Source of the DNA: a bacterium UBP8_UBA817
Lineage (GTDB): Bacteria > Margulisbacteria > Marinamargulisbacteria > SXXA01 > SICP01
Length of the DNA stretch: 64,000 nucleotides
Assembly: GCA_945898045.1 (NCBI GenBank)
Contig: CAMDGG010000001.1
Location: 1-64,000, forward strand
Direction of reading: 5' to 3'
The notes beneath the pieces are model-generated. The model worked only from the letters and a program-made list of their open reading frames with translations. It had not been told where the DNA came from and ran no database searches. Positions 7,964-45,357 of this stretch are shown piece by piece; position 1 is the first letter of the stretch; every line of letters begins with the position of its first letter. A program made the translations under genes and the position numbers.

Positions 7964-8482
7964 ATGAATTCTCAATACGCTATTCCTGATTTAATTCAGC
8001 AGATAGGTCGGCAGATTTTGTCCGCACATCCGATCTTAGATCAAATTGTTTTGGTTGGCATTTTGTCCGTGGGATACCCATTGGCACAGCGTCTCGCATT
8101 TTTTCTTGAGAAAGAAACGGGAAATCCTGTACAAGTTGGCAAATTGGATGTGGCCCTATATCGGGACGACTTGTTTTCTCGCCAAGATTTTGTGACGCTG
8201 CGAGAGTCGGATATTCCGTTTAGTATTGAAGGCAAAATTTTAATTTTAGTGGATGATGTTTTATTTCATGGTCGTACTATTAGAGCCGCTTTAAACGCGC
8301 TCTTGGATTTTGGGCGGCCTCTCACGATTGAGTTAGCCGTGTTAATTGATCGGGGTCATCGCCAACTTCCTATTTTCGCACACTATTGTGGGGCACAACT
8401 TCAAACTTCTACGGACGATCATGTTGAAGTCCAACTCTATGAAATAGATGGCGACGATAAAATTATACTGGAAAGGAAATAG
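7964..8482 (+). CDS. pyrR: Bifunctional pyr operon regulator / uracil phosphoribosyltransferase
   Basis: PRPP motif 'ILILVDDVLFHGRTIRAALNALLDFGRP', 'AVLIDRGHRQLPI'. Confidence 0.92.
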   Translation: MNSQYAIPDLIQQIGRQILSAHPILDQIVLVGILSVGYPLAQRLAFFLEKETGNPVQVGKLDVALYRDDLFSRQDFVTLRESDIPFSIEGKILILVDDVLFHGRTIRAALNALLDFGRPLTIELAVLIDRGHRQLPIFAHYCGAQLQTSTDDHVEVQLYEIDGDDKIILERK

Positions 8483-8506
8483 CCATTCAGGTTAGAATGA
8501 CACCCT

Positions 8507-15741: not shown

Positions 15742-17826
15742 TTAGCTCCCTTCTTCTGAAATGATACCAATAGATTGCACTTTTACTTTGGGAACAATTT
15801 CATTATAGGACAGAACAACAAGCTGCGGATAATTTCTTTCGGTAAATTTCTTAAAATGGGGCCGAAGACGAGGTGAGCAAAGTGATACCGGGTACTTATC
15901 CATTTTTCGGAAACTACTCATATGATATCCAATTTGGGACAATACTTTTTCACCAAGATGTGGATCTAATGCAAGGAAAGATCCATATTCGGACTGATGC
16001 ACGGCACCAATCATCGTCTCTTCAAGCCTAGGGTCAATAGTAAAAACGGTAATGGTGTCTTCTTTATCCATGTATTGACTACAGATTTGTCTAGCGAGAG
16101 ATTGCCTTACATACTCTGCAAGCAAATTGGTATCACGTGATACATGCGCATAATCTGCGAGCCGCTCTAGAATTGTGGAAAGATCTCGAATAGATACGCG
16201 CTCTTTCACCAACGTCTGTAATACTTTATGCACTTGCCCCAAAGACAACATGTCTGGAACTAGCTCTCGGACAATAGCGGCATTGGTATTTTTGACCAAA
16301 TCTAAAAGCGCTTGTACATTTTGGCGCGTCATAATTTCATCAGAATGTTGCTTGATGGCTTCTGCAAAGTGATTGGCAATGAAGTCTGTAATATTTTGCG
16401 CGGGGATTACATTTTCTTGCAGTAGTTCAATTTGATCTTCTGATACCCAGGCCCCAGGCTCGTTAGAGATGGGGTCTATAGCCTCTACCCCACTGATGCC
16501 TTGTCGCTTTAATTCTGCGACAGCACGCTGTACAAAAAAGTGACCTGGCAATGCCTCTCCAATAGCGACACGCGTACCTCGTATATCTACTTCGTACTGG
16601 TTAGGCGGCAAACTCAAATCATCTTGTACACGCACCCCAGGAATTACAAATCCCAATTCTTGGCCAATATGATAACGTACTAATGTAATACGCTCGAGAA
16701 GGGGTCCGTTTTGTGAAGGGTCAATGAGTGGTACGAGATTACGACCCGTTTTGAGACTGATGGGATCTAAGTTGAGTGTTCCCAATAGATTTTCGGGCTT
16801 TTTCATCGCGTCTTTCGCCGAATCTTGGTTACCCTCCATGGCCATGTCATCTGCATTTTGCTTGGATTTTACAATTGCCAAGGCCAGAACACCTGAACCC
16901 AGAGACAATAGCCCAAAAGGTATAGCAGGAAATCCTGGAATAAAACAACACATAAATAAGACAACAGCTGTTACCGCAAATGCTTTCGGCTGCCGAAAGA
17001 TTTGTGCTGTTACGTCGGCACCCAAACTTTCTTTGGAAGCCGATTTTGTTACAACCAAACCGGTTCCAATTGAGATTAAAAGTGCGGGGACTTGGGCAAC
17101 TAATCCATCTCCAATCGTTAGTGTTGTAAAGACTTTCAGGGCCTCACCCAAACTCAATCCCTGTTGAAATCGTCCGATTAATAATCCGCCGACCACGTTA
17201 ATAAATACGATAATAATACCGGCAATGGCATCCCCTTTTACGAACTTATTAGCACCATCCATGGATCCAAAAAAAGTAGATTCTTGTTCTAATTTTTTTC
17301 GACGTTCTCTGGCGCCATCTGCATCAAGTAACCCTGCATTTAAATCAGCATCGATACTCATTTGCTTTCCAGGCAATGCATCCAATGTGAACCGGGCGGC
17401 CACTTCTGCTACGCGCTCAGATCCTTTTGTAACAACCATAAATTGCACCAACGTAATGATGACAAACGCCACGACGCCGACCACAAAATTTCCTCTGGTT
17501 ACAAAATCCGCGAAAGCCAATACAACGTGTCCATTAAACTCGATACCCTCACTTAAAATAAGCTTGGTAGAAGCAACATTGAGAGAGAGTCTAAAGAGTG
17601 TCAAAATGAGGAGTATTGAGGGGAAAGCAGCAAAATCAAGAGGCTCCGCCAAGTACATAGCCATGAGCAAAACCACGACGCCGATGCCAATACTTAAGAC
17701 CATAAGGATGTCGAGTAACCACGTCGGAATAGGGACGATCATGAGACCGACAATCATGATGACTGTGACCGCAAGAATAACGTCGGAGAGGGAGAAAAGG
17801 TGGCCTAAGGATTTGAGTTTTGACAT
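15742..17826 (-). CDS. flhA: Flagellar export apparatus protein FlhA
   Basis: 'PSILLILTLFRLSLNVASTKLIL', 'RVAEVAARFTLDALPGKQMSIDADLNAGLLD', 'FVKGDAIAGIIIVFINVVGGLLIG'. Confidence 0.95.
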   Translation of the reverse strand: MSKLKSLGHLFSLSDVILAVTVIMIVGLMIVPIPTWLLDILMVLSIGIGVVVLLMAMYLAEPLDFAAFPSILLILTLFRLSLNVASTKLILSEGIEFNGHVVLAFADFVTRGNFVVGVVAFVIITLVQFMVVTKGSERVAEVAARFTLDALPGKQMSIDADLNAGLLDADGARERRKKLEQESTFFGSMDGANKFVKGDAIAGIIIVFINVVGGLLIGRFQQGLSLGEALKVFTTLTIGDGLVAQVPALLISIGTGLVVTKSASKESLGADVTAQIFRQPKAFAVTAVVLFMCCFIPGFPAIPFGLLSLGSGVLALAIVKSKQNADDMAMEGNQDSAKDAMKKPENLLGTLNLDPISLKTGRNLVPLIDPSQNGPLLERITLVRYHIGQELGFVIPGVRVQDDLSLPPNQYEVDIRGTRVAIGEALPGHFFVQRAVAELKRQGISGVEAIDPISNEPGAWVSEDQIELLQENVIPAQNITDFIANHFAEAIKQHSDEIMTRQNVQALLDLVKNTNAAIVRELVPDMLSLGQVHKVLQTLVKERVSIRDLSTILERLADYAHVSRDTNLLAEYVRQSLARQICSQYMDKEDTITVFTIDPRLEETMIGAVHQSEYGSFLALDPHLGEKVLSQIGYHMSSFRKMDKYPVSLCSPRLRPHFKKFTERNYPQLVVLSYNEIVPKVKVQSIGIISEEGS

Positions 17827-17830
17827 AGTT

Positions 17831-18901
17831 TTAGTAACGGTACTTCTTTTTCTTCTTTAGATTATACACAAAGGCCAAAATCTCTGCCACGGCTTTATAG
17901 TATTGCGGCGGTACTTCCTTGCCGGCTTCGGTTAATTTGAAAAGGGCTTGTGCCAAAGGCTTGTTTTCTATAATAGGAATATTATTTTCTCTTGCGATGC
18001 GTTTAATTTCCTCTGCCATTAAACGTTCGCCTTTAGCCAAAACTTTGGGAGCTTTCATTTGATTGGCCTTATACACAATCGCAATCGCCAAGTGTATAGG
18101 ATTTGTAACTACCACATCAGCACCTGGCACAGCCCCCATTTGACGCCCTTGCGCCATTTGACGCTGTGCCTCACGCTGCCTCTGCTTCACCGTAGGATCG
18201 CCTTCTAGACGCTTATACTCGTCTTTAATTTCCTTCTTAGACATCTTAAGTCCTTTAATATATTCATAGCGTTGATAAAAATAATCCGCCATCCCAATGA
18301 GCAGATAAAAAATACCTAACCGTGTAACAACCTTCATAATCAACTCTCCTACAAAGGTCATCATTTGCCATAGCGTTAACTGCTGAGCCATAATCACCAT
18401 AGGAAATTCATCTTTAATAATGCCCGTAACAAGCCAAACAACGACAATCATTTTAATGATAGATTTTATAAGTTCTACATATTGCTTAAGCGAAAAAAAC
18501 TTTTTACAGCCTTCAATTGGATTGAGTTTACTTAGCTGGGGCATTAAAGGTTCAAATGACAGCACAAACCCAGTTTGGAGTACCTCGACAACAATGGCGG
18601 TTGTTAAATTAGCAGCGAATAAGGGGGCCATTGCCCGCAAAAATGTAAATAACGTATCACTCAATAAAACGCCCACTGTTTTTTCTGTAAATTTTTCAGG
18701 GATCATATTAAAGGCCTGAAGCATGATGTTTGTCATTTGATCCCAAATGTAAACACCTGAAAATTTCAACGTATAAAAAGCGACGATTAATAAAAACGCC
18801 GCTGTTAAATCTTTGCTTTTTGCGATTTGCCCCTTTTTACGCGCTTCTTGTAGTTTATGGGGGGTAGGTTCTTCTGTTTTTTCGCCGGAATCTTCGCTCA
18901 T
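17831..18901 (-). CDS. flhB: Flagellar export apparatus protein FlhB (NPIH cleavage-site variant)
   Basis: 'EDSGEKTEEPTPHKLQEARKKGQIAKSKDL', 'MSKKEIKDEYKRLEGDP', 'GADVVVTNPIHLAIAI'. Confidence 0.95.
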   Translation of the reverse strand: MSEDSGEKTEEPTPHKLQEARKKGQIAKSKDLTAAFLLIVAFYTLKFSGVYIWDQMTNIMLQAFNMIPEKFTEKTVGVLLSDTLFTFLRAMAPLFAANLTTAIVVEVLQTGFVLSFEPLMPQLSKLNPIEGCKKFFSLKQYVELIKSIIKMIVVVWLVTGIIKDEFPMVIMAQQLTLWQMMTFVGELIMKVVTRLGIFYLLIGMADYFYQRYEYIKGLKMSKKEIKDEYKRLEGDPTVKQRQREAQRQMAQGRQMGAVPGADVVVTNPIHLAIAIVYKANQMKAPKVLAKGERLMAEEIKRIARENNIPIIENKPLAQALFKLTEAGKEVPPQYYKAVAEILAFVYNLKKKKKYRY

Positions 18902-18902
18902 T

Positions 18903-19673
18903 TTATACTTGTAGTGCGATTAATACTTCAAATGTTTTTTCGGTTAACATTTCCATTAATTTATAGATCGTATCGGTAAGCCCTGGCGTAATCGCCAAAA
19001 AAACCAGGAGTCCCACCGATGGCTTTACCTGAAAACCAAGCTGAAAAATATTGATTTGTTCTGCAATTTTATTAAGAAGTCCAAATGCAAAATCGACGAT
19101 AAACATGACTAATAAAATAGGCGCCGAAATAATTAAACCTACTTTAAATAACTCTGTTCCTAAAGAAAACACCATTTGGCTTCCTTTTGTAAAATTTAAT
19201 GGCATTGCGATGGGCAAAATATCAAAACTTTTCACAAGCGTTGTGATTACCATATGATGGCCGTTTAACTGAAGAAAAATGAGAATGGCTACCCAATTCA
19301 ATGTCTGAGACAACAAGGGTATACTTCGTCCTGTAGAAGGATCGAGTAAAGCCGCAACACTTAAACCTGCCTGGGTATCCATTAAACTCCCGGCAAACTC
19401 TACGGCTACGACGAGAAGATCTGCAATCAGGCCAATAATAACGCCTACCAAAAATTGACTTATAAATAACAAGACGAAAGGCTCGACATTGTTTGGCAAC
19501 TCCCTGGGAATAGGAATAGCAAAAACCAAGCTTGCCGTAAGCCAAAATACAAACGCCACTTTAGCCATCGAGAAAACATCTTTTCTACTAAAAACGGGTG
19601 CCGTTGATATCATTCCGGCGACACGTGCCAGAATGAGAAGAATGGCACTGACTAAGTGCAACGATAAATTCAT
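18903..19673 (-). CDS. fliR: Flagellar export apparatus protein FliR
   Basis: Multi-TM, 'LARVAGMISTAPVFSRKDV', 'DTQAGLSVAALLDPSTGRSIPLLSQTLNWVAILIFLQLNGHH'. Confidence 0.93.
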   Translation of the reverse strand: MNLSLHLVSAILLILARVAGMISTAPVFSRKDVFSMAKVAFVFWLTASLVFAIPIPRELPNNVEPFVLLFISQFLVGVIIGLIADLLVVAVEFAGSLMDTQAGLSVAALLDPSTGRSIPLLSQTLNWVAILIFLQLNGHHMVITTLVKSFDILPIAMPLNFTKGSQMVFSLGTELFKVGLIISAPILLVMFIVDFAFGLLNKIAEQINIFQLGFQVKPSVGLLVFLAITPGLTDTIYKLMEMLTEKTFEVLIALQV

Positions 19674-19939
19674 TTAGCGTAAAGCGGAATATTTTGCCAT
19701 AAGTTAATCGTCATTTCCATAATGATATTGGCTGTCCAGGGGAAGGTCGCGCCCAACACCAATAATACGACAATCATTTTGGGAACAAAGGTTAAAGTTT
19801 GTTCTTGGATCTGTGTAACTGCTTGCACGACAGCCACGATTAATCCCGCCAACAGCCCCAACGCTACACTTGGAAGAGACGCCAGCAATACGACTTGTAT
19901 TGCGGAATTTAGAATGGCATTTGCGGCTTCGATGGACAT
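19670..19939 (-). CDS. fliQ: Flagellar export apparatus protein FliQ
   Basis: 89 aa, two TMs, 'LLAGLIVAVVQAVTQIQEQTLTFVPKM'. Confidence 0.95.
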   Translation of the reverse strand: MSIEAANAILNSAIQVVLLASLPSVALGLLAGLIVAVVQAVTQIQEQTLTFVPKMIVVLLVLGATFPWTANIIMEMTINLWQNIPLYAK

Positions 19940-19948
19940 GAAATTTCC

Positions 19949-20743
19949 TTATTGAAAACTGATCAATAGACCTCGAATAATCAAATTCCACCCATCCGTC
20001 AAAACAAATAACAAGATCTTAAATGGCAACGAAATAATGGCAGGCGATAACATAAACATCCCTAGCGAAAGTAAAATATTCGAAATAATTAAATCGATAA
20101 CTACAAAGGGAATAAAGAGCAAAAATCCAATTTGAAAAGCTGTTTTTAATTCCGAAATAATAAAAGCTGGAATAATAACAAAGATAGGAATATTTTCGTA
20201 ATTTTGTGGATTTTGTATTTGTGAAAACTCAATAAATAGTGCCAAGTCTTTATCTCTTGTAAGTTTAAGCATGAAAAGACGAATAGGTTTTATGCCTTGT
20301 TCCAACATTTCCATTTGATTCAATTTGCCTTCACGATAAGGCGTTACTGCTACCCGATTAATTTCATTCCAGGTGGGCGTCATAACAAAAATAGTAATGA
20401 ACATGGATAACGCGACAATGATCATATTGGGAGGCGCTTGCTGTGTCGCGAGGGCTGTTCTCACCATGGAAAGCACGATGACTGTACGCAGAAATGAAGT
20501 AGTAGACATTACAAAAAAGGGGATAAATGCGATGCTTGCCATCGTAAATAGCAAGCGCATCGTCGTGCTGAACCCTTGAGGATCTACAAAAGTTTGTAAG
20601 TCTGAGGGTATGCCAGATTTTGCTGCTGTTTGCGCAGAAATAGGACTCACCATACAGAGAAATAGAAGACCAAGGCAGATGCCCCCCGTTAAGAGGACGC
20701 GTTTAAGTTTAAAGCGTTTCCAGGAATTGGACATTTTGACCAC
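19949..20743 (-). CDS. fliP: Flagellar export apparatus protein FliP
   Basis: 'PFFVMSTTSFLRTVIVLSMVRTALATQQAPPNMIIVALSMFITIFVMTPTWNEIN'. Confidence 0.95.
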   Translation of the reverse strand: MVKMSNSWKRFKLKRVLLTGGICLGLLFLCMVSPISAQTAAKSGIPSDLQTFVDPQGFSTTMRLLFTMASIAFIPFFVMSTTSFLRTVIVLSMVRTALATQQAPPNMIIVALSMFITIFVMTPTWNEINRVAVTPYREGKLNQMEMLEQGIKPIRLFMLKLTRDKDLALFIEFSQIQNPQNYENIPIFVIIPAFIISELKTAFQIGFLLFIPFVVIDLIISNILLSLGMFMLSPAIISLPFKILLFVLTDGWNLIIRGLLISFQ

Positions 20744-20945
20744 CTACACTGAGTAAATATTCTTTTTCGCGCAATTTTACTACGAGGAGTGCCGTAGCAT
20801 TACTCAACGGAATACGATCTACCACTTTCATCTCGCCCGAAAACTTCTGCTTCTGTAGATTTTTTGTCATCCTCAGAACGACCCACATAATTCCGGATAT
20901 AATTAAAAGACTTAGAATAACTTGAAGATAGTATCCGGTCGACAT
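20709..20945 (-). CDS. fliO: FliO-like flagellar biosynthesis protein
   Basis: One N-terminal TM then 'MKVVDRIPLSNATALLVVKLREKEYLLSVGGQNVQFLETL'; position between fliN and fliP. Confidence 0.8.
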   Translation of the reverse strand: MSTGYYLQVILSLLIISGIMWVVLRMTKNLQKQKFSGEMKVVDRIPLSNATALLVVKLREKEYLLSVGGQNVQFLETL

Positions 20946-21409
20946 TAGTAAGTTGTTTCAGTCTGAGAGATAATCTGTGTCACACGGAGGCCATAGTTAT
21001 TATCGATAGCCACGACTTCTCCCTGCGCAATAATTTGTCCGTTTACAACAAGATCCAGAGGCTCTCCGACCAATCTTTCTAGCTCGATGATGGCACCTTC
21101 TGTTAATTCATAAACTTCTTTTAAAGAAATCTGTGAACGTCCTAATTCCACCGAAAGGTTGACCGGTATATTTTTAAATACGTCTAGTTCAAACTTGCGC
21201 CCGGATATGTCTGTGTCTAGCGTAGGAAATTGTACGTCTGCCACAGGAGTTTCATCTGCATGACTTCGTTGTGTTTTTTTTGCAGGTGCTTTTGCTTTTT
21301 TTTCTGTCACACTTTCTTCTTTTTCTTCAGGAGCAGAAAAAGCACCCTCCATAATGGGGTCTATTTTTTCTAAAGGATCTTCAAATCGTTGTTTTTTTGC
21401 CATTTTCAA
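20945..21409 (-). CDS. fliN: Flagellar switch protein FliN
   Basis: SpoA domain 'FKNIPVNLSVELGRSQISLKEVYELTEGAIIELERLVGEPLDLVVNGQIIAQGEVVAIDNNYGLRVTQII'. Confidence 0.93.
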   Translation of the reverse strand: MKMAKKQRFEDPLEKIDPIMEGAFSAPEEKEESVTEKKAKAPAKKTQRSHADETPVADVQFPTLDTDISGRKFELDVFKNIPVNLSVELGRSQISLKEVYELTEGAIIELERLVGEPLDLVVNGQIIAQGEVVAIDNNYGLRVTQIISQTETTY

Positions 21410-22136
21410 GTACCTCGTTTACTAATTTTAGGTAGTCTTGCGCACCCTTGGAATTTATATCGTACTCAAAGATACTTTGTCTTGACCCTGGTGCCTCTGA
21501 CAAACTGACACAGCTACGAATGGCTAATGAAAGTAATCCAGGAAATACCCTTTCTAAACTTTGGCACACATCCTGAGATTTTTTATTTCGCTTATCAAAA
21601 AATGTTGGAACAACTTTGGAAATACTGATATCACTACCGAATATTCTATTAATGATTTTTATATTGTTCAATAGCTGTTTTACCCCGACGAGTGACAAGT
21701 ATTCCATCGACACAGGCAAAATAATTTCTTCCGCGTACAAAAGTGCATTTTGATTTAACAAATTCATAGACGGACCGCAGTCTATAATAACGATATCATA
21801 CTCCGTTACATCTGCCATATACCTTGCGAGCAATCTCTCCCGTTCAGGCATTCCTGACATGGCAATTTCTGCAGGAAAAAGATATTCATTTCCACAGATC
21901 ATATCTAGATTAGGGCGTACTGGTTGGATACAATTTCGCGCAGTTTCTTTTCCCATCAAAACATCATAGAGAGATTTTTTTGCGGTGATTCCCAAGTGGT
22001 ATCCGACAGATCCCTGTGGATCCATATCAATGATCAGAACTTTTTTCCCTTTTAGCGCAAGTCCATGTGCAAGGCTTACGGAAGTAACCGTTTTCCCGGT
22101 ACCCCCTTTATAATTAATAATCGCAATTTTTCTCAT
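21381..22136 (-). CDS. ParA/Soj-family ATPase
   Basis: 'YKGGTGKTVTSVSLAHGLALKGKKVLIIDMDPQGSVGYHLG', 'SEAPGSRQSIFEYDINSKGAQDYLKLVNEVL'. Confidence 0.92.
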   Translation of the reverse strand: MRKIAIINYKGGTGKTVTSVSLAHGLALKGKKVLIIDMDPQGSVGYHLGITAKKSLYDVLMGKETARNCIQPVRPNLDMICGNEYLFPAEIAMSGMPERERLLARYMADVTEYDIVIIDCGPSMNLLNQNALLYAEEIILPVSMEYLSLVGVKQLLNNIKIINRIFGSDISISKVVPTFFDKRNKKSQDVCQSLERVFPGLLSLAIRSCVSLSEAPGSRQSIFEYDINSKGAQDYLKLVNEVLENGKKTTI

Positions 22137-22148
22137 CGTTGGATCACG

Positions 22149-23561
22149 CTATTCCGCATCCAAATCATCCCACGAAAAATCATCGTCCCATTCTTCTTCG
22201 GTTTCTTCTCCTGGGGATTCAACAGGTGCTGAAGGTGGCACATTGGAAACCGAGGGAGGCGTATCGAGTTCTTCACCGGTCTCGTCATCATCATCTAAAT
22301 CGCCCCACTCATCGTCAGCATCTTCTTCATCAACAAGTTCTTCTTCTGGAATTTCGTCTTCTTCCGGCGCATCATCTGCTTCATTTTCCCAGTCATCACT
22401 TTCGTCTTCGGCCATTGCTGATGCGGGAACAGGAATAGGAACAGGGGTAGGGATAGGGATAGGAACAGGAGGTGCTTCTTCAATAATAGGTGGCGGATTA
22501 TATACAGGTGCGGGCGGTTCTGGAAGATCTTCTGTAGGTGGCGTTTCGTGTATAAAAGGGAGCACAGCACTTCGGGTTATTCTTTTAGGTGCGCCCTCTT
22601 GGTCTTCCATCATTAATAACTGTATACATACTTTATGACCGACCACACCTGGCTGCCCTGAGAGGCGTGTTTTCTGCCCTCCAATATAAATTTTCAGAGG
22701 CTCATCCAAGCAAGTGTCGAGCGTAATGACATCTCCAACTTGTAGGTTTTTAATATCCTGCATTCTTAGCGTGGTTTCTCCCAAAACTGCCCTAACAGGT
22801 ATTTTTGTCTTGGTTAGTGTATTAGGATAAATTGCGATTCTTTTTTTGATGGGATCAGAAAATGTTTGTCTGATCGTGAGTAGTTTTCTTAAAATATGAT
22901 TAGGATATGCCCACGTTACTTTTTTCAGATCGCCTTTTCCAAAATAAAAATAGAATGTAAAAATAATGTAGGCTTCTCTAAGTGTTACTTTTTTGTCTTG
23001 GATATACTTTCCGCACTGAAAATCGAGTCGCAATTGATCTTGTGTAAAAATAGATTTCCAAGCATCTATAAAGTAAGGAACCAATTCCTCTGTTTGCGTC
23101 TTAAGAATTTCCCCTTCTAAATCAGAAAAAGTCTCGACGTCACTTTCTTCACCCTTTCCACCGACTAGGCGATTTACAATCATGTCTGCCAAAGCCCATT
23201 CAAATAGGACATTCACGCGTCCATGTTCCCCCAAAACAAAATCAGTTTGCACGACCGAATTTTGCTGTGCATTGAGAAAATCATCGTAGGCCATTTGGCT
23301 TGCTACGATTGAATGCAACTCTACTTTGATATCCATATCTTGGGATAGTTTTTTGGTTATTTTTTCTGCCAATCTGTAATGTAAATAATGTACATATTTA
23401 AGCTGATCACGCGGCATACTATCAAAGTTAATATTACGAATTGGTGAGATATTAATCTCTTCCATGTCACTATCTCGATATTGAATTGTTGTCCAATCCC
23501 CTATCGCTGGGGCTAGTTTAATTTTCCTTGAAAAAGCAAAGCCGTTTTTTTGATTTACCAC
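22149..23561 (-). CDS. fliM: Flagellar switch protein FliM-like with long Pro/acidic C-terminal tail
   Basis: 'RNINFDSMPRDQLKYVHYLHYRLAEKITKKLSQDMDIKVELHSIVASQMAYDDFL', SpoA-like region 'IPVRAVLGETTLRMQDIKNLQVGDVITLD...KIYIGGQ'; then about 130 aa rich in P, D and E. Confidence 0.82.
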   Translation of the reverse strand: MVNQKNGFAFSRKIKLAPAIGDWTTIQYRDSDMEEINISPIRNINFDSMPRDQLKYVHYLHYRLAEKITKKLSQDMDIKVELHSIVASQMAYDDFLNAQQNSVVQTDFVLGEHGRVNVLFEWALADMIVNRLVGGKGEESDVETFSDLEGEILKTQTEELVPYFIDAWKSIFTQDQLRLDFQCGKYIQDKKVTLREAYIIFTFYFYFGKGDLKKVTWAYPNHILRKLLTIRQTFSDPIKKRIAIYPNTLTKTKIPVRAVLGETTLRMQDIKNLQVGDVITLDTCLDEPLKIYIGGQKTRLSGQPGVVGHKVCIQLLMMEDQEGAPKRITRSAVLPFIHETPPTEDLPEPPAPVYNPPPIIEEAPPVPIPIPTPVPIPVPASAMAEDESDDWENEADDAPEEDEIPEEELVDEEDADDEWGDLDDDDETGEELDTPPSVSNVPPSAPVESPGEETEEEWDDDFSWDDLDAE

Positions 23562-23564
23562 GTT

Positions 23565-24170
23565 TTATGGCTCCTCAAATTTAACTGTGATTCTTCGCCC
23601 ATTTTCTAAGTATATCGCATCGTGGCGGATAATAAAGTAGGCTTTTTTTATTGTGTTCGCTTCGACATCTTTGTAAGGCAATTCTTGCCCTATGCGTTGT
23701 GTCGGTCGTTGAAAAGAAACGGCTGGCAATTGAATTCCCTGTGCCTCAACGAGGCCCGATGTACTTATTTTATTTTCAACAAAAAATCTCTGGCGTTTTT
23801 GAGCTTCATTTAATTGTTCAGCTCGGTCTGTAATGTCTTGTGGAAGTCCTGGTAAATCCTCAAAACTCATTTTAGCCTGAACAGTATTTCGCCGCATATC
23901 CCAAATATTAGCAATCCACGACTCCCCTACCTGATTTATTTTTGTAATCATGCCACTAAATGTTACGGCTCCATTCTGTACAATATTTACTTTTTTTCCC
24001 ACATAATTAGCATACAGAAAGTCTCTTATATCTAATTTAGATTGTTCTTTGGCAAGCGCTACATCAAATGTTTGGGCGGAAGAGCCGCGGCCCTCCTGAT
24101 CCCCTAAAGAGGACGTGTTGACTACAGGGGATGGGGTTAGCGAATTGGAGATAGGACTTGGTGATGACAT
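23565..24170 (-). CDS. Uncharacterised protein in flagellar operon (occupies a flgD-like position)
   Basis: 201-aa ORF tightly between fliM and the FliK-like gene; polar Ser-rich N-terminus, no Cys; no family recognised. Confidence 0.6.
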   Translation of the reverse strand: MSSPSPISNSLTPSPVVNTSSLGDQEGRGSSAQTFDVALAKEQSKLDIRDFLYANYVGKKVNIVQNGAVTFSGMITKINQVGESWIANIWDMRRNTVQAKMSFEDLPGLPQDITDRAEQLNEAQKRQRFFVENKISTSGLVEAQGIQLPAVSFQRPTQRIGQELPYKDVEANTIKKAYFIIRHDAIYLENGRRITVKFEEP

Positions 24171-24191
24171 TTAGTTATAATATACCGTCAG

Positions 24192-24917
24192 TTACTCATC
24201 GGAAAAGAGGGAGTCCGATTCGCTCTCTTTTTTCTGCTGTTGTTGCTGCTGAGAATTCTGTCTATCTTGTTGATTAGTATGTGAGGGTTCTTCTTGTAGA
24301 AAGAGACTGATGTCTTGATCTGGAAATATTTTTTGCAAGGTTTGTTTGAGTTCGGCCTGATGTTTTTGCAAGTCTTTGAACCCTATCCCTAATTGCTCAT
24401 CTCCAAATACTTGGATCTTAATACTTTTGCCTTCAGTCTGGAACTGCACTTTCAAAGGAGGCTCCGTAAAGGTGAATTGATATTGCTGCTTTCCGTTGAT
24501 TGGATCTAGCTTTTTGATGATTGTGACGGTTTCTCTAATAAACACGTGTAGAATAGGGCGCACATCCGCAATATTACGTGCCTGAAGTGCCTGTAATAAA
24601 TATTGAGCAGGAGAAAGCTCGGTTAAAGACTTTGTGTCGGTTGTAGTTTCTTCGCGTTTTTTGTTTTCCGGATCTTGAAATACTTTTTCTTTTGGCTTAA
24701 TCGGAAGAAATTCTGCGTCTTCCTTTCCATCCCCTTCTTGTTGCATTTTGTAATGGGCTTGGCCTATTTCGACTATATTTTCTTTTTCTGGCGCTTCAGA
24801 GGCTTGGCTCATTAGCTCGATAAAAGAGGTCGTAGTCTTCAAGCTCCCTAGCGGTTGCGTAGGAATTGAGGGAGTTGTCGCTATAGGGTCTTGAGAAAAT
24901 TGCAACTCATGCATCAT
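24192..24917 (-). CDS. Possible hook-length control (FliK-like) protein
   Basis: Disordered N-terminal half, compact domain 'PPLKVQFQTEGKSIKIQVFGDEQLGIGFKDLQKHQAELKQTLQKIFPDQDISL', Q-rich tail; operon position. Assignment mainly by architecture. Confidence 0.5.
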   Translation of the reverse strand: MMHELQFSQDPIATTPSIPTQPLGSLKTTTSFIELMSQASEAPEKENIVEIGQAHYKMQQEGDGKEDAEFLPIKPKEKVFQDPENKKREETTTDTKSLTELSPAQYLLQALQARNIADVRPILHVFIRETVTIIKKLDPINGKQQYQFTFTEPPLKVQFQTEGKSIKIQVFGDEQLGIGFKDLQKHQAELKQTLQKIFPDQDISLFLQEEPSHTNQQDRQNSQQQQQQKKESESDSLFSDE

Positions 24918-27140: not shown

Positions 27141-27216
27141 TATTAATTACGTTATTTTATTATTTAATGGGGTTTTATAGATAGAATTGTTACTTTGATA
27201 TTGCGTGCGTATCAGT

Positions 27217-27333
27217 CTTGGCCACGACCTACTCTCCCACTAGGGTAACCCAGCAGTACCATGGGCGCTGAAGGACTTAACTTCTGTGTTCGAGATGGGA
27301 ACAGGTGTACCCCCTTCGCTATCATGACCAAGA
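27217..27333 (-). rRNA. rrf: 5S ribosomal RNA
   Basis: Reverse complement of the typical 5S pattern (cctactctcccactagggtaacccagcagtaccatgggcgctgaaggacttaacttctgtgttcgagatgggaacaggtgt); ends approximate. Confidence 0.93.
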
Positions 27334-27399
27334 TTCATACGCACGCTTAAATTGTGATTTTTTTGTTTTAAGAGTTATTGCATCATAAACTGCTTTTTT

Positions 27400-30380
<2,981 letters not shown>

Positions 30381-30548
30381 AAAAAAGCAGTCTATGAGCA
30401 ATAACTCTTCACTCTGAAAAGTTACTCTCAATAAACTAGACGCTTTGATGTCTAACTCATTTTTAAACAAAAAATCACAATCATATCAAAGAACAAGCAC
30501 TTGTGTTTTGTGCGGGTCTTGAAGAATACCTAATATGATCTTTGTTTG

Positions 30549-37595: not shown

Positions 37596-38462
37596 TTAAG
37601 CCACCAATTTACTCAGCAAGTCGTTAACAATTTTGTTGACGTCTTGCAGGGCCCCCTGTAGCGCAGAAAAACCTCTATTCAGCAGATTCATGTCCAATGC
37701 AACTTGCGCCACTCTGATATTAGAAGATTCTAACGATGCCCCCAAAATCTGGCCCAATCCATCTTCTCCTGCAGTGACAGGTGTTTGGGCTAGTCCTGAC
37801 GCCACAGTACTTTTTAGCGCCCCCCCATCGACCAATACCAGGCCTTGTCTATTTTGAAAGGTGGTTATAGCAAGTTTATAGAGCGGGGCTTGCTCTGGCG
37901 GCGTAGTTCCGCCGGCGATCGCATCTTTTTCTGCCTGGAAATTACTCACTAAAACACCACCATCTTTGAAGCCAATGTCTTTATTCCCATCTGTTTCAAT
38001 GGGGACAAGCGTACGATTTACAGGGGTTCCGTTTTTGTCTACTTTGAATCCAAATACTTTTCGTCCAAATGAATCCACCACAAATTGATTGTTAAAATCT
38101 ACTTGGAAGCGTCCGGCACGGGTATACGATTTTTGTGACTGCGCATCAAATTGTGACGCAGAATCCGATAGGATAAAAAATCCGTCCCCCGAAATAGCAA
38201 CATCCATACCTGTACCAAATCCGATATTACCTTGTGCATAGTCCGTACTCGTTGTGCCCAACGTCATGCTTGAGCCAGATTGAATAGGATTAGTGGTGTC
38301 CGTTCCCATTGACTCTACCTTACTAAAAACCGTAGTGAAGGAAGCAAACGAATATTTGTAACCAGGGGTGTTGAAATTATTAGAGTTTGAGATGGCAATT
38401 TTTAGGCCACTTTCGAGTGCTGATAGCGCGTTTCCTATTTGTTTATATAAATCTAGTATCAT
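37596..38462 (-). CDS. Flagellar hook/rod-type basal body protein (FlgE/FlgF/FlgG family)
   Basis: 'IGNALSALESGLKIAISNSNNFNTPGYKYSFASF', 'GTGMDVAISGDGFFILSD...YTRAGRFQVDFNNQFVVDSFGRKVFGF', 'LESSNIRVAQVALDMNLLNRGFSALQ'. Confidence 0.9.
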   Translation of the reverse strand: MILDLYKQIGNALSALESGLKIAISNSNNFNTPGYKYSFASFTTVFSKVESMGTDTTNPIQSGSSMTLGTTSTDYAQGNIGFGTGMDVAISGDGFFILSDSASQFDAQSQKSYTRAGRFQVDFNNQFVVDSFGRKVFGFKVDKNGTPVNRTLVPIETDGNKDIGFKDGGVLVSNFQAEKDAIAGGTTPPEQAPLYKLAITTFQNRQGLVLVDGGALKSTVASGLAQTPVTAGEDGLGQILGASLESSNIRVAQVALDMNLLNRGFSALQGALQDVNKIVNDLLSKLVA

Positions 38463-38480
38463 GATTGTTTCTCCTTTGTT

Positions 38481-40334
38481 TTATGCCGCTTCGATAATGG
38501 TGGTTTCTGAATTAAATGAAATTGTCTGAGATGTTTCTATATGTTCACCCAAGCCAGACTCTTGCTTGAGTCGATTGAGAATCGCTAAATACTCTTTCTT
38601 CTTCCTACTTAAATAAACGTCTCCCGGATTTGCTTCTAAGTGTACACTGAGTTTAAGATATTCTTCTTTAATGATAGAAAACATACTGCTGTTTACTTGA
38701 TCTCGTATGGCAAGCATATCTTTTTTGGGCATCGAAGCGCCTAGGTTTTTCAATCCTTTTAGTGCTAGTTTTAATTTTTTTTGAACCAATGCAAAAGCGG
38801 GTCCTTGGAGAGAGGGTAATGTTGCTTTTTCTTCCATGGCTTCTTTAAAAAGATCCATGAGTCTTAGGCGAGCCAGACCTTCTCCCTCTTGTTGTAACTT
38901 TTTATAGGCTGGTTCTGAGTTTAATTTTTTCTTAAGCTTGTTAAGCTTAAACCTAATTTCTATGTTTGAGCGAAGATCCAACTGAACAGACTTTTGTAAA
39001 AACAAGGTGCGGATATCATCTTCTAAACCGTCTATCGATGTTTCTGGAGCTTGCTGTTGTTGTCTTTTTGAATTTCCACCCGATTGACGTCGTGGATCCG
39101 TATCAATCATCCCAGGAATTTCGGGCGCTCTGAAGCCGGCCGCTCCCCAATCTTCAAGTTTTTTACCGATTGTTTTCATATATGCAGCGCTGTCAAATTT
39201 TGCAATACTGGCAATTTCATTAAAGCGATTAAAGGCTTTAACAAGTTCTTCTGGAGAACCCCCTTTCGCCTTAGATTCAATAATTGTATTGTCTAGTTCG
39301 TTTGCAATAAAGTTCCTCATATCCGCTTTGGCATCTTCCTTGACCTCTTGCATATTGGATCGCCCTGGACCAAATACACCCTTTAAACCGGCTAGATCTG
39401 CCAAACTTTCCATTTCATTACTTTTGTGAATCGCTTCTAACGTAATTTTATTGTCGTAGCTTAATGCCAGTTTAATAAAACTATCTTTTAGTTTTTGCTT
39501 AAAATCTTGATGAAGCGTGCGGCGAATAGTACCCTCTAAATTGCTCAACTTACTAGGAGAAAGGCCCTCGGTGAGCAATTTCTCCTTAAGGTGTCTCGCT
39601 TGATCTTGCTTCTGTTGTGTTGGGGAAAGAATGGTTTCGGCCAAAGTAGTAAGGTACTTTGTAACCACTTCTGTAGTTTCTATATCTGCCGTGCCCGTTT
39701 CTTGTTTTTCAGTCTTCTTTAATTCGGTTGCGGCAGCTTGCGCCAAGACAGCTTGTAGAGGAGGTTTTTTTGCCATTTCTTGGGCCGTATGCAGATTACC
39801 TTGAGAGTCTTTTTGTGCTTCAGTTGGCTTGCCTTGTGGATTAGTTTGTTTTTCTAGGAGTAGCTTTTTGAGGTCATTAGGTAAGTGAGCCTCTTCTTTT
39901 TTACGATCTTTACTAAGAACGACGCTATCTTCGGTTTTTTCTTTGTATTCATCCTGAAAATGTTTTTCCACTGTTCTGGCAATTTCTTTTTCTAATCCTT
40001 TCGGCATAAATTGATTGTGCTGCGTACCAGACTTTGCCAATTTTCGACTCATTTCTTGTAAAAGTTCATTAGGCGAAACATCTTCTTCAAGCGCAGCAAC
40101 AGATGTTGATGTTTCTGAAAATCTTTTTTCTTGTTTTCGCTTCCGTTTGATATCTTTTTCACTTTCTTGTCCAGAGACGACCTTTTCTTCACCATGTATA
40201 GTTTGGTTTACGTCTTCTTCGTTAAACAAATGGGACTTCATACTGTCATCATTTGCTTCGGTTTTATTGAGGGGCATTATGGAGCCGGCGTTATGCTCGA
40301 TGATGTTTCGGAGATTAGTTGGCTGGACGTTCAT
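38481..40334 (-). CDS. Uncharacterised, highly charged helical protein
   Basis: 617-aa ORF, E/K/Q-rich, no Cys; same strand and spacing as hook-like gene; no family recognised. Confidence 0.7.
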   Translation of the reverse strand: MNVQPTNLRNIIEHNAGSIMPLNKTEANDDSMKSHLFNEEDVNQTIHGEEKVVSGQESEKDIKRKRKQEKRFSETSTSVAALEEDVSPNELLQEMSRKLAKSGTQHNQFMPKGLEKEIARTVEKHFQDEYKEKTEDSVVLSKDRKKEEAHLPNDLKKLLLEKQTNPQGKPTEAQKDSQGNLHTAQEMAKKPPLQAVLAQAAATELKKTEKQETGTADIETTEVVTKYLTTLAETILSPTQQKQDQARHLKEKLLTEGLSPSKLSNLEGTIRRTLHQDFKQKLKDSFIKLALSYDNKITLEAIHKSNEMESLADLAGLKGVFGPGRSNMQEVKEDAKADMRNFIANELDNTIIESKAKGGSPEELVKAFNRFNEIASIAKFDSAAYMKTIGKKLEDWGAAGFRAPEIPGMIDTDPRRQSGGNSKRQQQQAPETSIDGLEDDIRTLFLQKSVQLDLRSNIEIRFKLNKLKKKLNSEPAYKKLQQEGEGLARLRLMDLFKEAMEEKATLPSLQGPAFALVQKKLKLALKGLKNLGASMPKKDMLAIRDQVNSSMFSIIKEEYLKLSVHLEANPGDVYLSRKKKEYLAILNRLKQESGLGEHIETSQTISFNSETTIIEAA

Positions 40335-40355
40335 GATGGAATTTCCTCTATTACC

Positions 40356-40622
40356 CTAGGCCTGAAACGACCGATTTTGCTTTACTTTCAATCTTTTCAA
40401 CCCAATTTGCATCAGAATCTTATCTTTTTTGCTTAAGTCCAAAACATCCTCGAGTTTGGCTTGATACAATTTGAGGCGATGTTCTGTTTTATTAATGTAC
40501 ATATCCAGTCTTTTTATTTTCTTCTGAATTTCTTTCGCACTAACGGTCGGGTCTTGTCCATCCGTAAATTCGACCAAGACACTTGCTGATTTCACAGTCT
40601 CTTTTTTAGGTGCTGATGTCAT
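40356..40622 (-). CDS. Uncharacterised small coiled-coil protein
   Basis: 88 aa, 'VSAKEIQKKIKRLDMYINKTEHRLKLYQAKLEDVLDL'; overlaps next gene by 4 nt. Confidence 0.6.
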   Translation of the reverse strand: MTSAPKKETVKSASVLVEFTDGQDPTVSAKEIQKKIKRLDMYINKTEHRLKLYQAKLEDVLDLSKKDKILMQIGLKRLKVKQNRSFQA

Positions 40623-41461
40623 GTTCCCACTTCTTGTATTAAGAACTCATATTGATAGGCCAATGCGTCTCGTTCTTGCTTAAATTCTTCTTTTATTTTT
40701 TTCATTTGCTTGATTCTTTCTTCTAAGAACCTGGATTTAGACCAGTAATTTGGTTTGCCAAGCAACGTCATTTGTTGCATGAGTTGCTGTTGTGCCTCTG
40801 CGTACATAGCCAAGCTTTTTTTTGATTTCCTGCTTTTCCCATGCAATAGTTCTGTTAGCTCCATATTATATATATTTTCGCCCATATTATTTAGATTTTC
40901 TTCACTTGCGCCCTCTAGTGCTTTTTTTTGCATGATTTGAAGCTCTTCCGGAGTGACGCCCATAGCGGTGAGCATTTGTCCAATGAGCCCTACTTTAAAT
41001 TGCGCGTATTTGGACAAAAAGAAATTGGAGGATTTGGCCTGCACTGTGTTTTGCATGTAGGTTTGTTGGAGCTGAGATAGCTTTGGAGAGAAATCGATTT
41101 TTTGTCCAAACAATTTTAGTATTGTATTGCCGTCGTTTTTAAGATCCACCGAGGTTAATAATGGATCTTTCAAGGCCGCTTTCAATTCGTATTTACCCTC
41201 TTCGTTTTTAGACCATTTGGTATTACCAATAGAGACATTGTCCTCTCGTGGATCCGATTTTTTATCAAGGGCGGTGGCCACCTGTTCTTTGGTTTCTTTT
41301 TCTACCTTTGCGAGCTGATCGCTTTGGGACGCTAGTTGTTTGGTGGCTTCTTCTTTTTGGACTTTGAGTGTTTCCTGTAATTTTTCGTAGTACGGATTTG
41401 CACTCATTTTTTGGGCTGAGGGTCGAGATAACGAGGTACTCCCTATTCGGGTGTCGCTCAT
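40619..41461 (-). CDS. Uncharacterised helical protein
   Basis: 280 aa, no Cys, 4-nt overlaps on both sides indicate an operon; no family recognised. Confidence 0.65.
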   Translation of the reverse strand: MSDTRIGSTSLSRPSAQKMSANPYYEKLQETLKVQKEEATKQLASQSDQLAKVEKETKEQVATALDKKSDPREDNVSIGNTKWSKNEEGKYELKAALKDPLLTSVDLKNDGNTILKLFGQKIDFSPKLSQLQQTYMQNTVQAKSSNFFLSKYAQFKVGLIGQMLTAMGVTPEELQIMQKKALEGASEENLNNMGENIYNMELTELLHGKSRKSKKSLAMYAEAQQQLMQQMTLLGKPNYWSKSRFLEERIKQMKKIKEEFKQERDALAYQYEFLIQEVGT

Positions 41462-43866
41462 GATTCCTCTTCCTCAGATTTTGGCTTTTGCGAGTTTTTG
41501 TTGTTTTCGCCCTGTATTTTTTCGCCTTGTTTTCGGCTTTCTTCTGCGGCCTCTTTTACTTGCCTTTCTATTCTTGCGGTGACCGCTTGGTCGTCGGCCT
41601 TTTCATCTGCTTCGACTTGATTACTTACTTTAATACGATCAATCTCATCATCCTCGAACTCTTCTTTTTGAGCCTCATAGGTCTTGATCTGTTTCGCATG
41701 TCGGATAGAGATCATTTTATTTATTTGTGATTTCTCAAAGATGTTATGGCCGATAGCATTCGTAGATTTGTCTTTAATTAGTTTCTGCGCGTCTGCAAAA
41801 ATGGGATCATTATAATCGTTTAATTGGCTGATACTGTAACGAAATTTCGCATCTTTTTTACCCAACACATTGATACTATCTTCTGATAGACCGTTATTGG
41901 TAATCATCGGCAACTTGTCGCCACCAAACATGCCTAGAACAGGCGCTAAAAGTTGTGAAAGGCCCAAGATGTCATCCGTAAATTTTTGAGCCGTGTCTTT
42001 ATTTTCAAAATTAAGCTTTAAAGGTTCGCCTTCTACAGTTTTCCAGGCACCCACCCATTCATCTTTCCCTTTAACTTGTACTTTATGGTCTTCTGGATTC
42101 CACTCTTGCCAAGATGCTTTATTGCTCACTGAAACAGCACCAGAGCTTTCTCCTTTGGCGGTAAATACAGCCTTGCCGTTACTATCTTTTTCGGTACTCA
42201 TGCCTACCATTGTTGAATAAATATGTAAGAGTGATTCATAGGCACTACGCGTGTTTTGAACTTTTTCTTGCCAGGTATTTCCTGTATTTATTTTTGCGGT
42301 GATGTCTCCAAGAGATTCGTAAGCCTTGCTACTTTCGTTATAGATTTTTATATTGCGTCGACCTACATCTTTAATTTGATCGAAATCTTGAACTTCAAAA
42401 CTAAATTTTCCAAGATACTTTTCCCGCACCGTTTTTTGAATAAAAGCCTCTTTATCAGCCCCCAAGCCTAGACCTAGATCAAAAGCAGGATCTTCCATTT
42501 TAAAGTGGGCTGTAATTTCGCCTTCTTCTGTAATAAACCCTTTCTCGATTAACTTTGTCCAAACCTTATTGGTCTCAGCTGTACTATCCAAATTAAAATC
42601 TTCTTTTGAAAGCTGCTTTTTACTTGCGAATTGACTTAAGTACTTTTGACTTAAATAGTCATGATATCCACTTACCAAAATTGCTCTAGGATCACCTTCG
42701 TTTTTAAGTAACCCTTTACTTGCGCTATCTCCTGCCGCCCCAACTTTACTCCAATCCGTATTGGTCGTAAGAGAATTGGCTATCTCGGGAATCAGCGCTT
42801 GTGTTAATAAGATGGGTACGTCCTTAACTTTACTACCAATTTTATCCCACCAGCTTTGTGCCTGTGTAGTTGCATCTAGTTTCTGTTGTTCCATTGTTTT
42901 TTCGGGACTGTTTTGAGCAGAAAATCCTGTTGGTTTTGGCCCTGTTCCATACATATTGGCATAGATGGCATTGAATCTTGACATGTCTTCAAATGCACTC
43001 ATGACGGTGAAAAAACTTTCTTTATTATTTAGTTTTTTATAGACCTCTGGGCTTGTAATGATGCCGTTGTAGTCGAGATACATATCGTGTTTATCAACAC
43101 TATCTGCATAGTAGGGGTCTGTCATTTTTTCTTTATTGAAATTTTTATTTTTTTTCGTAATGTCCGCTATCGTTGTGTTCATGGTATCCCATAGCTTGGG
43201 ATCGAATTTTTCTAGCGATTGGAGGGATGAAAGAAATTGCGAATTAATAGGCTTGAGCGCCTTATTTTTTTCAAACGCGTCATAGTTTTCGGTGTCTCCC
43301 GTTTTGATAGGATTCCGGTTATCAAGCCTTTGGTAAAGAGATAGGTTATGGAGATAAGTATTCCCTTCACCTTCTATACTTTCGTCTTTTTTTGCATCAA
43401 TGGCATCATTTTCAATTTTTTTATCTTTTTGTTTTTTGGCTAAAGCGGCTGATTCGAAAGCTAACTTTTGCTTGGGCAACTCGTCTATCAGCTTCTTTTT
43501 TGAAAGATAGGCCGGATCATCCGTCCTCTCAAAATTGGATCGCTCTCCTACTAGCTCTATATTTAACTTCTGTTGCCTAGAAATAAATTTGAGTCCGCTT
43601 GACATCCCCGAAAGCTCTTTGGCAATACTAAGCGCATTAAGCTGCTGGGAAAGAGTATAGTCGGAAACAGAGATTGACTCGTGTGCACCAGCACCTGAGC
43701 TAGTGGCTCGCGAGGCAGCCGCGTCTGGATCTACGTCATTTAAAATTTCATTTAATTGGCTCCCGAAGCTATTTTTTGCATTAAATTGCTTATCGGGACG
43801 CACATCTATTCGGAATGCGAATGGGGCAGGCTTGGGTTGGTTAAATTTTTCGATCTCATCTAGCAT
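41458..43866 (-). CDS. Uncharacterised 802-aa protein sharing a G(F/Y)I...G.(I/V)T module with the giant protein
   Basis: Long ORF, polar N-terminus, no Cys; internal 'VWTKLIEKGFITEEGEITAHFKMEDPAF'. Confidence 0.7.
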   Translation of the reverse strand: MLDEIEKFNQPKPAPFAFRIDVRPDKQFNAKNSFGSQLNEILNDVDPDAAASRATSSGAGAHESISVSDYTLSQQLNALSIAKELSGMSSGLKFISRQQKLNIELVGERSNFERTDDPAYLSKKKLIDELPKQKLAFESAALAKKQKDKKIENDAIDAKKDESIEGEGNTYLHNLSLYQRLDNRNPIKTGDTENYDAFEKNKALKPINSQFLSSLQSLEKFDPKLWDTMNTTIADITKKNKNFNKEKMTDPYYADSVDKHDMYLDYNGIITSPEVYKKLNNKESFFTVMSAFEDMSRFNAIYANMYGTGPKPTGFSAQNSPEKTMEQQKLDATTQAQSWWDKIGSKVKDVPILLTQALIPEIANSLTTNTDWSKVGAAGDSASKGLLKNEGDPRAILVSGYHDYLSQKYLSQFASKKQLSKEDFNLDSTAETNKVWTKLIEKGFITEEGEITAHFKMEDPAFDLGLGLGADKEAFIQKTVREKYLGKFSFEVQDFDQIKDVGRRNIKIYNESSKAYESLGDITAKINTGNTWQEKVQNTRSAYESLLHIYSTMVGMSTEKDSNGKAVFTAKGESSGAVSVSNKASWQEWNPEDHKVQVKGKDEWVGAWKTVEGEPLKLNFENKDTAQKFTDDILGLSQLLAPVLGMFGGDKLPMITNNGLSEDSINVLGKKDAKFRYSISQLNDYNDPIFADAQKLIKDKSTNAIGHNIFEKSQINKMISIRHAKQIKTYEAQKEEFEDDEIDRIKVSNQVEADEKADDQAVTARIERQVKEAAEESRKQGEKIQGENNKNSQKPKSEEEES

Positions 43867-43896
43867 GGCCGTCGCTCCGTTATCTGGTATTCCGCA

Positions 43897-44247
43897 CTAT
43901 CTAAGTGTCCATAATTTATTTTCGTTTTTCAATCCTAGATTCGCAAGTCCATCAGCCGCTTCTCTGGAACTGTCTAGCGCTTGCATATAAATTTGCAGAC
44001 CCAATGCACCACCGACACTGTTAATATCTACTGATTGCCCTGTGTTTAAATCAACGACACCATTGCTATTAACAATATCATTCTGTACACGACTTAACTC
44101 TTTAAAAAAGCTATCCCAGGCTAAATATCGACCGTATGCATAGTCAAATGTTCCCTTAATCTTGTTGGCATTGACTACAGATGTAGCGGATCTATCAAAG
44201 AAAAAACTACCTGTAAAACCACTATTACCATTATTACTACCAGCCAT
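43897..44247 (-). CDS. Uncharacterised small protein, candidate export substrate
   Basis: 116 aa, Gly/Asn/Ser-rich N-terminus without Sec signal, no Cys. Confidence 0.6.
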   Translation of the reverse strand: MAGSNNGNSGFTGSFFFDRSATSVVNANKIKGTFDYAYGRYLAWDSFFKELSRVQNDIVNSNGVVDLNTGQSVDINSVGGALGLQIYMQALDSSREAADGLANLGLKNENKLWTLR

Positions 44248-44283
44248 GAGACACCTCCTTTTTTAATGAATATTGTCGCGATG

Positions 44284-44311
44284 CCGCCCCTGATATAAAT
44301 GCCAGGGGCGG
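44284..44311. other. Perfect 9-bp GC-rich hairpin between the 116-aa and 90-aa genes
   Basis: CCGCCCCTG-atataaatgc-CAGGGGCGG. Confidence 0.8.
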
Positions 44312-44332
44312 TTGTTTATCAATCAGCCGTTA

Positions 44333-44605
44333 TTATCCTTGGCCCAATTTCTTCGCGGCTTCTTTGTTGGCCTTAGCGTCTTTATCAGGGGTGGATTTTC
44401 TAACTTCATAGCTAGATTCTGCCTCTGTTAATTTAAGCTGAGATCCAACCATAGTTCCCAATGTTGTTCCGGATGAATCTGATTTATCCAAAGTATCTCT
44501 AATTCTTTCAAGATCAGATGTATATTCATTACCCGCAGCTGTTCCGGCTGCAACTCTATCTCCGGCTGTATCTAAATTTACTGCTGCATCATAAGTTCCT
44601 GGCAT
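44333..44605 (-). CDS. Uncharacterised small protein, candidate export substrate
   Basis: 90 aa, 'MPGTYDAAVNLDTAGDRVAAGTAAGNEYTSDLERIRDTLDKSDSSG...'; RBS-like aggagaaac upstream; no Cys. Confidence 0.6.
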   Translation of the reverse strand: MPGTYDAAVNLDTAGDRVAAGTAAGNEYTSDLERIRDTLDKSDSSGTTLGTMVGSQLKLTEAESSYEVRKSTPDKDAKANKEAAKKLGQG

Positions 44606-44805: not shown

Positions 44806-45357
44806 ATGGACGATACCGAAATACTTGAATTACTTGATACTCTGGAAGAAATTTCTGGAGAAGGTGAGGCGTTGGAAGAGTCTGAAATTTCACTCGCATT
44901 TAGCTTATTAGATTATCCTACGCCAGAAATCGCAACCAGAGCCGCCATTTTTTTAACAGGTCTTACTGACCCAGCTATTTTCTTGCGTCTTCTTGCCATT
45001 TTTCCAGAATGCTCGGCTGAGATTCAAAGACAATTGGCCATTTTGATGGCGTGTCTGGATCATGTGGAAATTTATGTATTTTTGTTGGATTTTATCGAAA
45101 CCGCTTCAGATGCCATCCTGTGTCTCACTATTGAAATGGCACTAGCCAACACCCGCTATCCTATTTTGGGACTCATCTTTGAAAGGCTGGATACAGCGCC
45201 CCCCCACTATCTTAGAAAACTAGAACGTATTATTCGCTCTATGGATCGTCACCGACTTAAAACCATTTTGAGGCTTTATCCGGTGGTTCCTCATGAGCGT
45301 TTTTTGCGGGATATTTTGGGGGATACGTTTATGCACGATGTATACAAGAAAAAATAG
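44806..45357 (+). CDS. Small acidic all-helical (HEAT-like) protein upstream of the giant gene
   Basis: 183 aa, 'ISLAFSLLDYPTPEIATRAAIFLTGLTDPAIFLRLLAIFPECSAEIQRQLAILMACLDHVEIYVFLLDFI'; same strand, 61 nt before the giant ORF. Confidence 0.7.
   Translation: MDDTEILELLDTLEEISGEGEALEESEISLAFSLLDYPTPEIATRAAIFLTGLTDPAIFLRLLAIFPECSAEIQRQLAILMACLDHVEIYVFLLDFIETASDAILCLTIEMALANTRYPILGLIFERLDTAPPHYLRKLERIIRSMDRHRLKTILRLYPVVPHERFLRDILGDTFMHDVYKKK

Follow-up and report, generated by a model that had tools for sequence, protein, structure and literature searches.

The question raised by this locus is why seven consecutive genes should encode proteins that contain no cysteine (Cys) at all, and what those proteins do. 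The genes lie at positions 37596-44605, on the minus strand, of the 64,000 bp stretch analyzed here (the window: the start of contig CAMDGG010000001.1, assembly GCA_945898045.1), which comes from UBP8_UBA817, a member of the class Marinamargulisbacteria. UBA6595, which NCBI likewise names UBP8, has been placed in this class (PMC6349859), and the phylum concerned is probably Margulisbacteria, a group of uncultured bacteria. On balance we favor the view that the cluster specifies the outer and accessory part of a type III secretion machine that is derived from the flagellum, stands apart from it, and either has lost flagellin or never possessed it.

A run of seven Cys-free genes

The seven open reading frames (ORFs) encode proteins of 288, 617, 88, 280, 802, 116, and 90 aa (the first is called FlgE-like below and the others p617, p88, and so on). 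The initial annotation of this DNA described them as devoid of Cys, and their coordinates and lengths, as well as the count of 0 Cys in 2281 residues, are confirmed; 22.5 Cys would be expected at the 0.99% Cys of the remaining ORFs in this 120 kb region. The spacing of the genes is operon-like, but the “several” 4-nt overlaps of that annotation number just two (p802/p280 and p280/p88). Multiplying zero-Cys fractions matched for length gives a chance of ∼1e-5 for such a run. The run lies far below the 120 kb background, but lone Cys-free ORFs are not rare (31 of 216 background ORFs of at least 250 aa). The unusual feature is the run of seven, not any single Cys-free gene. Divergent from the cluster, on the plus strand, are a gene for a 183 aa protein (p183) and a giant ORF of 6669 aa, both of which the initial annotation of the cluster overlooked.

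The relatives of these proteins show that avoidance of Cys is graded. Those of p90 and p116 have none (0/696 residues in 8 relatives and 0/1751 residues in 16 relatives, respectively), and those of the FlgE-like protein have a single Cys in 4799 residues. Over the compared loci, whose background is 0.82% Cys, the values then rise from 0.10% for p802 through 0.19% for p617, 0.27% for the giant protein, and 0.36% for both p280 and p88 to 1.56% for p183. This grading, a constraint signal that is uncorrected for composition, sets the likely exported axial parts apart from p183 within one locus. Conserved avoidance of this kind agrees well with an exported fate for p90, p116, and the FlgE-like protein and, probably, for p802 and p617. 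Because the relatives of p280 and p88 do carry Cys, its absence from the two proteins in the window is not a family trait; export therefore fits these two poorly, and the grading suggests that they may be cytoplasmic. The initial annotation had proposed an exported or structural role for all six genes of no recognizable family, an idea that remains attractive for p90, p116, and probably p802 and p617, but not for p280 and p88.

Absence of Cys might instead be a by-product of a Lys/Glu/Gln-rich, disordered composition and so carry no information about export. The N-terminus of p617 is indeed modeled as disordered, and both the lone Cys-free background ORFs and the uncorrected rates are in keeping with this idea, but across many relatives p116 and the FlgE-like protein have next to no Cys, while p183 in the same locus has 1.56%, and we consider this explanation improbable.

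Export gate, rings, and the absence of flagellin

Genes for an export gate and C-ring proteins lie elsewhere in the window (Table 1; the FliP, FliQ, FliR, and FlhG names were assigned by reading the ORFs). Its FlhA matches PF00771 above the cut-off and scores 768.1 bits against TIGR01398, just below the cut-off of 772.1; scored as SctV (TIGR01399) it reaches 650.1 bits, which is below both the cut-off of 692.25 and its score as FlhA. FlhB scores 381.5 bits against TIGR00328 (cut-off 349.25). A relative of the 201 aa sigma-factor-like protein whose gene adjoins flhA is found beside the flagellin-less flhA in many other genomes read. A second locus, on contig C4, contains genes for FliF, FliE, FlgC, FlgG, FlgF, an FlgF-like paralog, FlgA/H/I, an FlhB C-terminal homolog, and a FliK-like protein; the MS ring protein FliF (PF01514), FliE, FlgI, FlgH, FlgA, and the FlgE/F/G domains match above their cut-offs, and FlgC is below its own (TIGR01395, 96.2 bits against 102.1). 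Canonical rod proteins pass through the type III export system without a signal peptide. By eye, the N-termini of FlgC, 128 aa and 132 aa proteins, and the FlgF-like paralog on contig C4 resemble signal peptides (L068:2391-2843, 2867-3250, 4012-4407, and 8470-9276), as do N-termini encoded by loci L069, L070, L077, and L078.

The genomes compared are draft assemblies of 55-100% estimated completeness, in which single absences mean little, and it is therefore absence across the whole class that carries the argument. Flagellin (PF00669) was detected in 0 of 27 class genomes and in all four named control genomes, and FliF and FlhA are present in 24 and 22, respectively, of the same 27. Of the 74 genomes of the phylum, 66 have FlhA and eight have flagellin. 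Each of these eight has two to three FlhA matches, some of them fragments, and the five whose loci were read have two distinct FlhAs, of which one set forms a clade of its own and the second copies group with the FlhA of the window. The first set is called flagellin-linked here in the sense that it occurs only in flagellin genomes, at loci among other flagellar genes, although flagellin itself was not seen beside every one. In a tree that includes FlhAs of other phyla, the flagellin-less clade has support of 98/97 and the flagellin-linked clade 100/99; several outgroup branches are long, and the deeper order is unsure. Since it coexists with a true flagellum in some members, the machine appears to be a distinct one for secretion rather than a degenerate flagellum. 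Together, the export gate and rings, the class-wide lack of flagellin, the distinct FlhA clade, and this coexistence make the modified flagellar-type secretion machine that the initial annotation proposed well supported.

A flagellum decaying after loss of its filament, with the cluster genes as passengers, would also account for a class without flagellin. It would agree with the short FliG encoded beside FliF in genome G002 (L069:12917-13597), a 227 aa protein that matches FliG_N and only part of FliG_M. Yet FlhA is kept in most of the phylum, its separate clade stands alongside the true flagellar FlhA, and gene order and Cys avoidance are conserved over divergent sequences, so that we regard such decay as very improbable. 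FliG_C matches are strong (131-150 bits) only in the eight flagellin genomes; most class genomes have weaker ones, and a low-scoring match occurs in a single additional member of the phylum.

Conservation of the cluster

The gene order p90-p116-p802-p280-p88-p617-FlgE-like is kept in class genomes of several families, as far as their contigs reach, and wherever a contig of the class loci read extends that far p183 and the giant gene are divergent from the cluster. Matches to p802 were found in 15 of the 95 genomes searched, including the source genome, and are confined to the class except for a weak one (E 3e-5) in a distant member of the phylum, G060. The p280 profile has matches in 59 of the 74 phylum genomes but in 0 of 309 from other phyla; elsewhere in the phylum p280 is often accompanied by p88, p617, a larger ORF, and small Cys-free ones, with large ORFs nearby. 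Upstream of p90, a sigma-28 promoter search scored no higher than shuffled sequence, and the motif CGATA is weakly enriched in 11 upstream regions (9 occurrences; 2.3 expected).

Individual cluster proteins

The FlgE-like protein is the only one of the seven that matches known families. It scores 98.1 bits against TIGR03506 (cut-off 70.25) and its profile matches FlgE and FlgG in the PDB, which bears out its earlier assignment to the hook/rod family. The two small proteins p90 and p116 have a weak profile similarity to each other (hhalign probability 65%, E 6e-5). In PDB profile searches p90 found no relative and p116 no convincing match, and neither profile matched needle or rod (SctF/SctI) chains, a search of low sensitivity at such lengths. 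The p802 ORFs range from 399 to 1438 aa among the matches, shorter unmatched ORFs fill the same slot in some genomes, and profile searches gave p802 no family or PDB match.

In some genomes p280 is fused to p88 and in others it is split in two; a p88-like sequence forms the p280 C-terminus in L030 and L031, and L032 has a similar C-terminal extension. In-frame stops in p280 matches might point to TGA recoding; L074 and L075 have an uninterrupted p280 ORF. The AlphaFold2 model of p280 is helical, with a mean predicted local distance difference test score (pLDDT) of 77 that rises to ∼94 over residues 131-280, and Foldseek finds no PDB fold match to it at E ≤ 0.001. The p617 family, with matches across the phylum, has a conserved C-terminal IVEAA motif; the model of p617 combines a long disordered N-terminus with a confident, helical C-terminal domain (residues 434-600; mean pLDDT 64 overall). 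Pfam scans of the p617, p802, and p280 families gave just scattered weak matches, and PDB profile searches of p90, p116, p280, p617, and p802 gave no credible relative. The structural and profile searches that had been suggested for these proteins turned up no cytosolic enzyme, but no known secretion part either.

The giant ORF and p183

The giant protein has only 6 Cys in its 6669 residues. In its N-terminal region a Cys (in the sequence GDCED), a His, and an Asp are aligned in 9 of 9 homologs, and Pfam transglutaminase-like families match it below their cut-offs; it is possibly a main cargo of the machine. The p183 protein has 3 Cys, and its gene is kept 5′ of the giant gene in L031, L033, and L037-L040. 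An apparent fusion of p617 to the giant protein in L104 was rejected, as 88% of that ORF is X. Some 6 kb beyond the giant gene, at 71358-79097 of contig C1, is an ORF of 2579 aa that is rich in Cys (42 residues), in contrast to the giant protein.

Proposed mechanism and its alternatives

If the cluster does belong to a separate secretion machine, substrates would leave the cell by way of the FlhA/FlhB/FliPQR gate and the rod, and the FlgE-like protein would prolong the channel beyond the L ring. There p90 and p116 might substitute for flagellin, polymerizing into a short extension that resembles a needle or filament, with p802 and p617 as exported accessory or tip/ruler proteins. Inside the cell p280, with p88, could act as a chaperone or gatekeeper, and p183 may be a helper of the giant cargo. 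Injection into other cells would be the most speculative step, and the fuller proposal that this is a third type III line, specific to the phylum, which arose from the flagellum by a route independent of the injectisome, has a needle-like pair of its own, and delivers a giant protease-like cargo to partner cells, is a tentative one that we think less probable than its converse.

Several observations weigh against the secretion machine. In profile searches p90, p116, p280, p617, and p802 have no detectable relative among the known needle, tip, translocator, or gatekeeper proteins; the p617 model, itself of low confidence, has no Foldseek match in the PDB at E ≤ 0.001; and p617 was not found beside p280 in most of the flagellated genomes read. 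The Cys-free ORFs of the background include long ones that are unrelated to the cluster. In addition, the sole FliG_C match of the source genome is the C-terminal part of a 495 aa protein encoded away from FliF on contig C3 (L096:9124-10608), which has an N-terminal hydrophobic stretch and a transmembrane-like stretch; this membrane-anchored FliG-like protein keeps a rotary function conceivable in the class.

The same genes could build a host- or prey-directed injectisome, derived from a flagellum apart from the known non-flagellar type III secretion systems (NF-T3SS), in which p90 and p116 form the needle, p802 is the tip or translocator, and the giant protein enters a eukaryotic or bacterial partner. 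In its favor are a pair of small Cys-free proteins that weakly resemble each other, the Cys-His-Asp set conserved in the giant protein, and the presence of a Marinamargulisbacterium inside Trichoplax cells (PMC6784892). Against it, PDB profile searches turned up no relative in the needle, tip, or translocon families, and FlgH/FlgI ring genes are present; we think it doubtful. Rather unlikely, too, is a surface appendage that serves adhesion without injection, with the hook-like protein and p90/p116 as a short filament and p802 and p617 as adhesive or structural parts. The hook-family protein, the ring and rod genes, and the strong variation of p802 size among genomes are compatible with such an appendage, but it leaves unexplained the protease-like residue set conserved in the giant protein and the phylum-specific helical p280/p88 pair.

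The preferred reading, a flagellum-derived secretion machine, would if true mean that in a separate instance a flagellum became a dedicated protein exporter, one that is maintained across a phylum of uncultured bacteria and, in some members, alongside true flagella. The conversion of flagellum to secretion machine would then become testable, since two machines could be compared within one genome. Searches of a library of open-access papers, mostly on narrow terms, found none on such a machine.

Table 1. Features of the window and their proposed roles
Feature	Position	Strand	Description
p90	44333..44605	-	Small and Cys-free, first in the cluster; putative axial subunit of needle or rod type
p116	43897..44247	-	Small and Cys-free, second in the cluster; putative axial subunit and possible p90 paralog
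p802	41458..43866	-	Variable-size Cys-poor protein; candidate secreted tip, ruler, or substrate
p280	40619..41461	-	Helical, specific to the phylum; putative chaperone or gatekeeper in the cytoplasm
p88	40356..40622	-	Short protein; putative p280 partner
p617	38481..40334	-	Long disordered N-terminus and helical C-terminal domain; may be a gatekeeper or an exported part
FlgE-like	37596..38462	-	FlgE/F/G-family hook- or rod-like protein; TIGR03506
p183	44806..45357	+	183 aa, normal Cys; possible cytosolic partner of giant protein
Giant	45419..65428 (passes window end at 64000)	+	6669 aa; putative transglutaminase-like domain at about residue 244; candidate cargo for secretion
FlhA, FlhB, FliR, FliQ, FliP, FliN, ParA/FlhG-like, FliM, two unknowns	15742..24917	-	Export gate and C-ring genes
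Sigma-factor-like protein, 201 aa	14854..15459	-	Adjoins flhA

The window also contains 23S and 5S rRNA genes (27395-30382 and 27216-27332, respectively); a 16S gene was not found in it.

Comparison with known systems

With the bacterial flagellum the machine shares genes for FlhA/B, FliP/Q/R, FliF, FliE, FliM/N, FlgC/F/G, FlgA/H/I, an FlgE-family protein, and FliK-like and FlhB-C-like proteins. It differs in that no flagellin was found in the class, the FliG at the FliF locus has no detected torque domain, several rod-protein genes encode signal-peptide-like N-termini, and the novel cluster and giant gene are present. Its likeness to the injectisome (NF-T3SS) is one of proposed function only: a flagellum-derived channel, small axial proteins, and a large cargo. 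In sequence its FlhA scores 768 bits as FlhA and 650 as SctV (below both cut-offs), p90 and p116 have no SctF/SctI-like match in the PDB, and FlgH/FlgI ring genes are present. The NF-T3SS of the Myxococcales is also flagellum-related; it has no motility parts, and its origin has been argued to be a protein translocation system (PMC3459982). That system lacks FlgBCDEK, FliEG, and FlgH (PMC3459982), whereas the machine described here has FliE, FlgC/F/G, and FlgH/I. Buchnera likewise retains flagellar basal bodies with their export machinery, for which motility is not the evident use (PMC8109811); the bacteria described here differ in having a dedicated extra cluster and what appears to be a phylum-wide separate machine.
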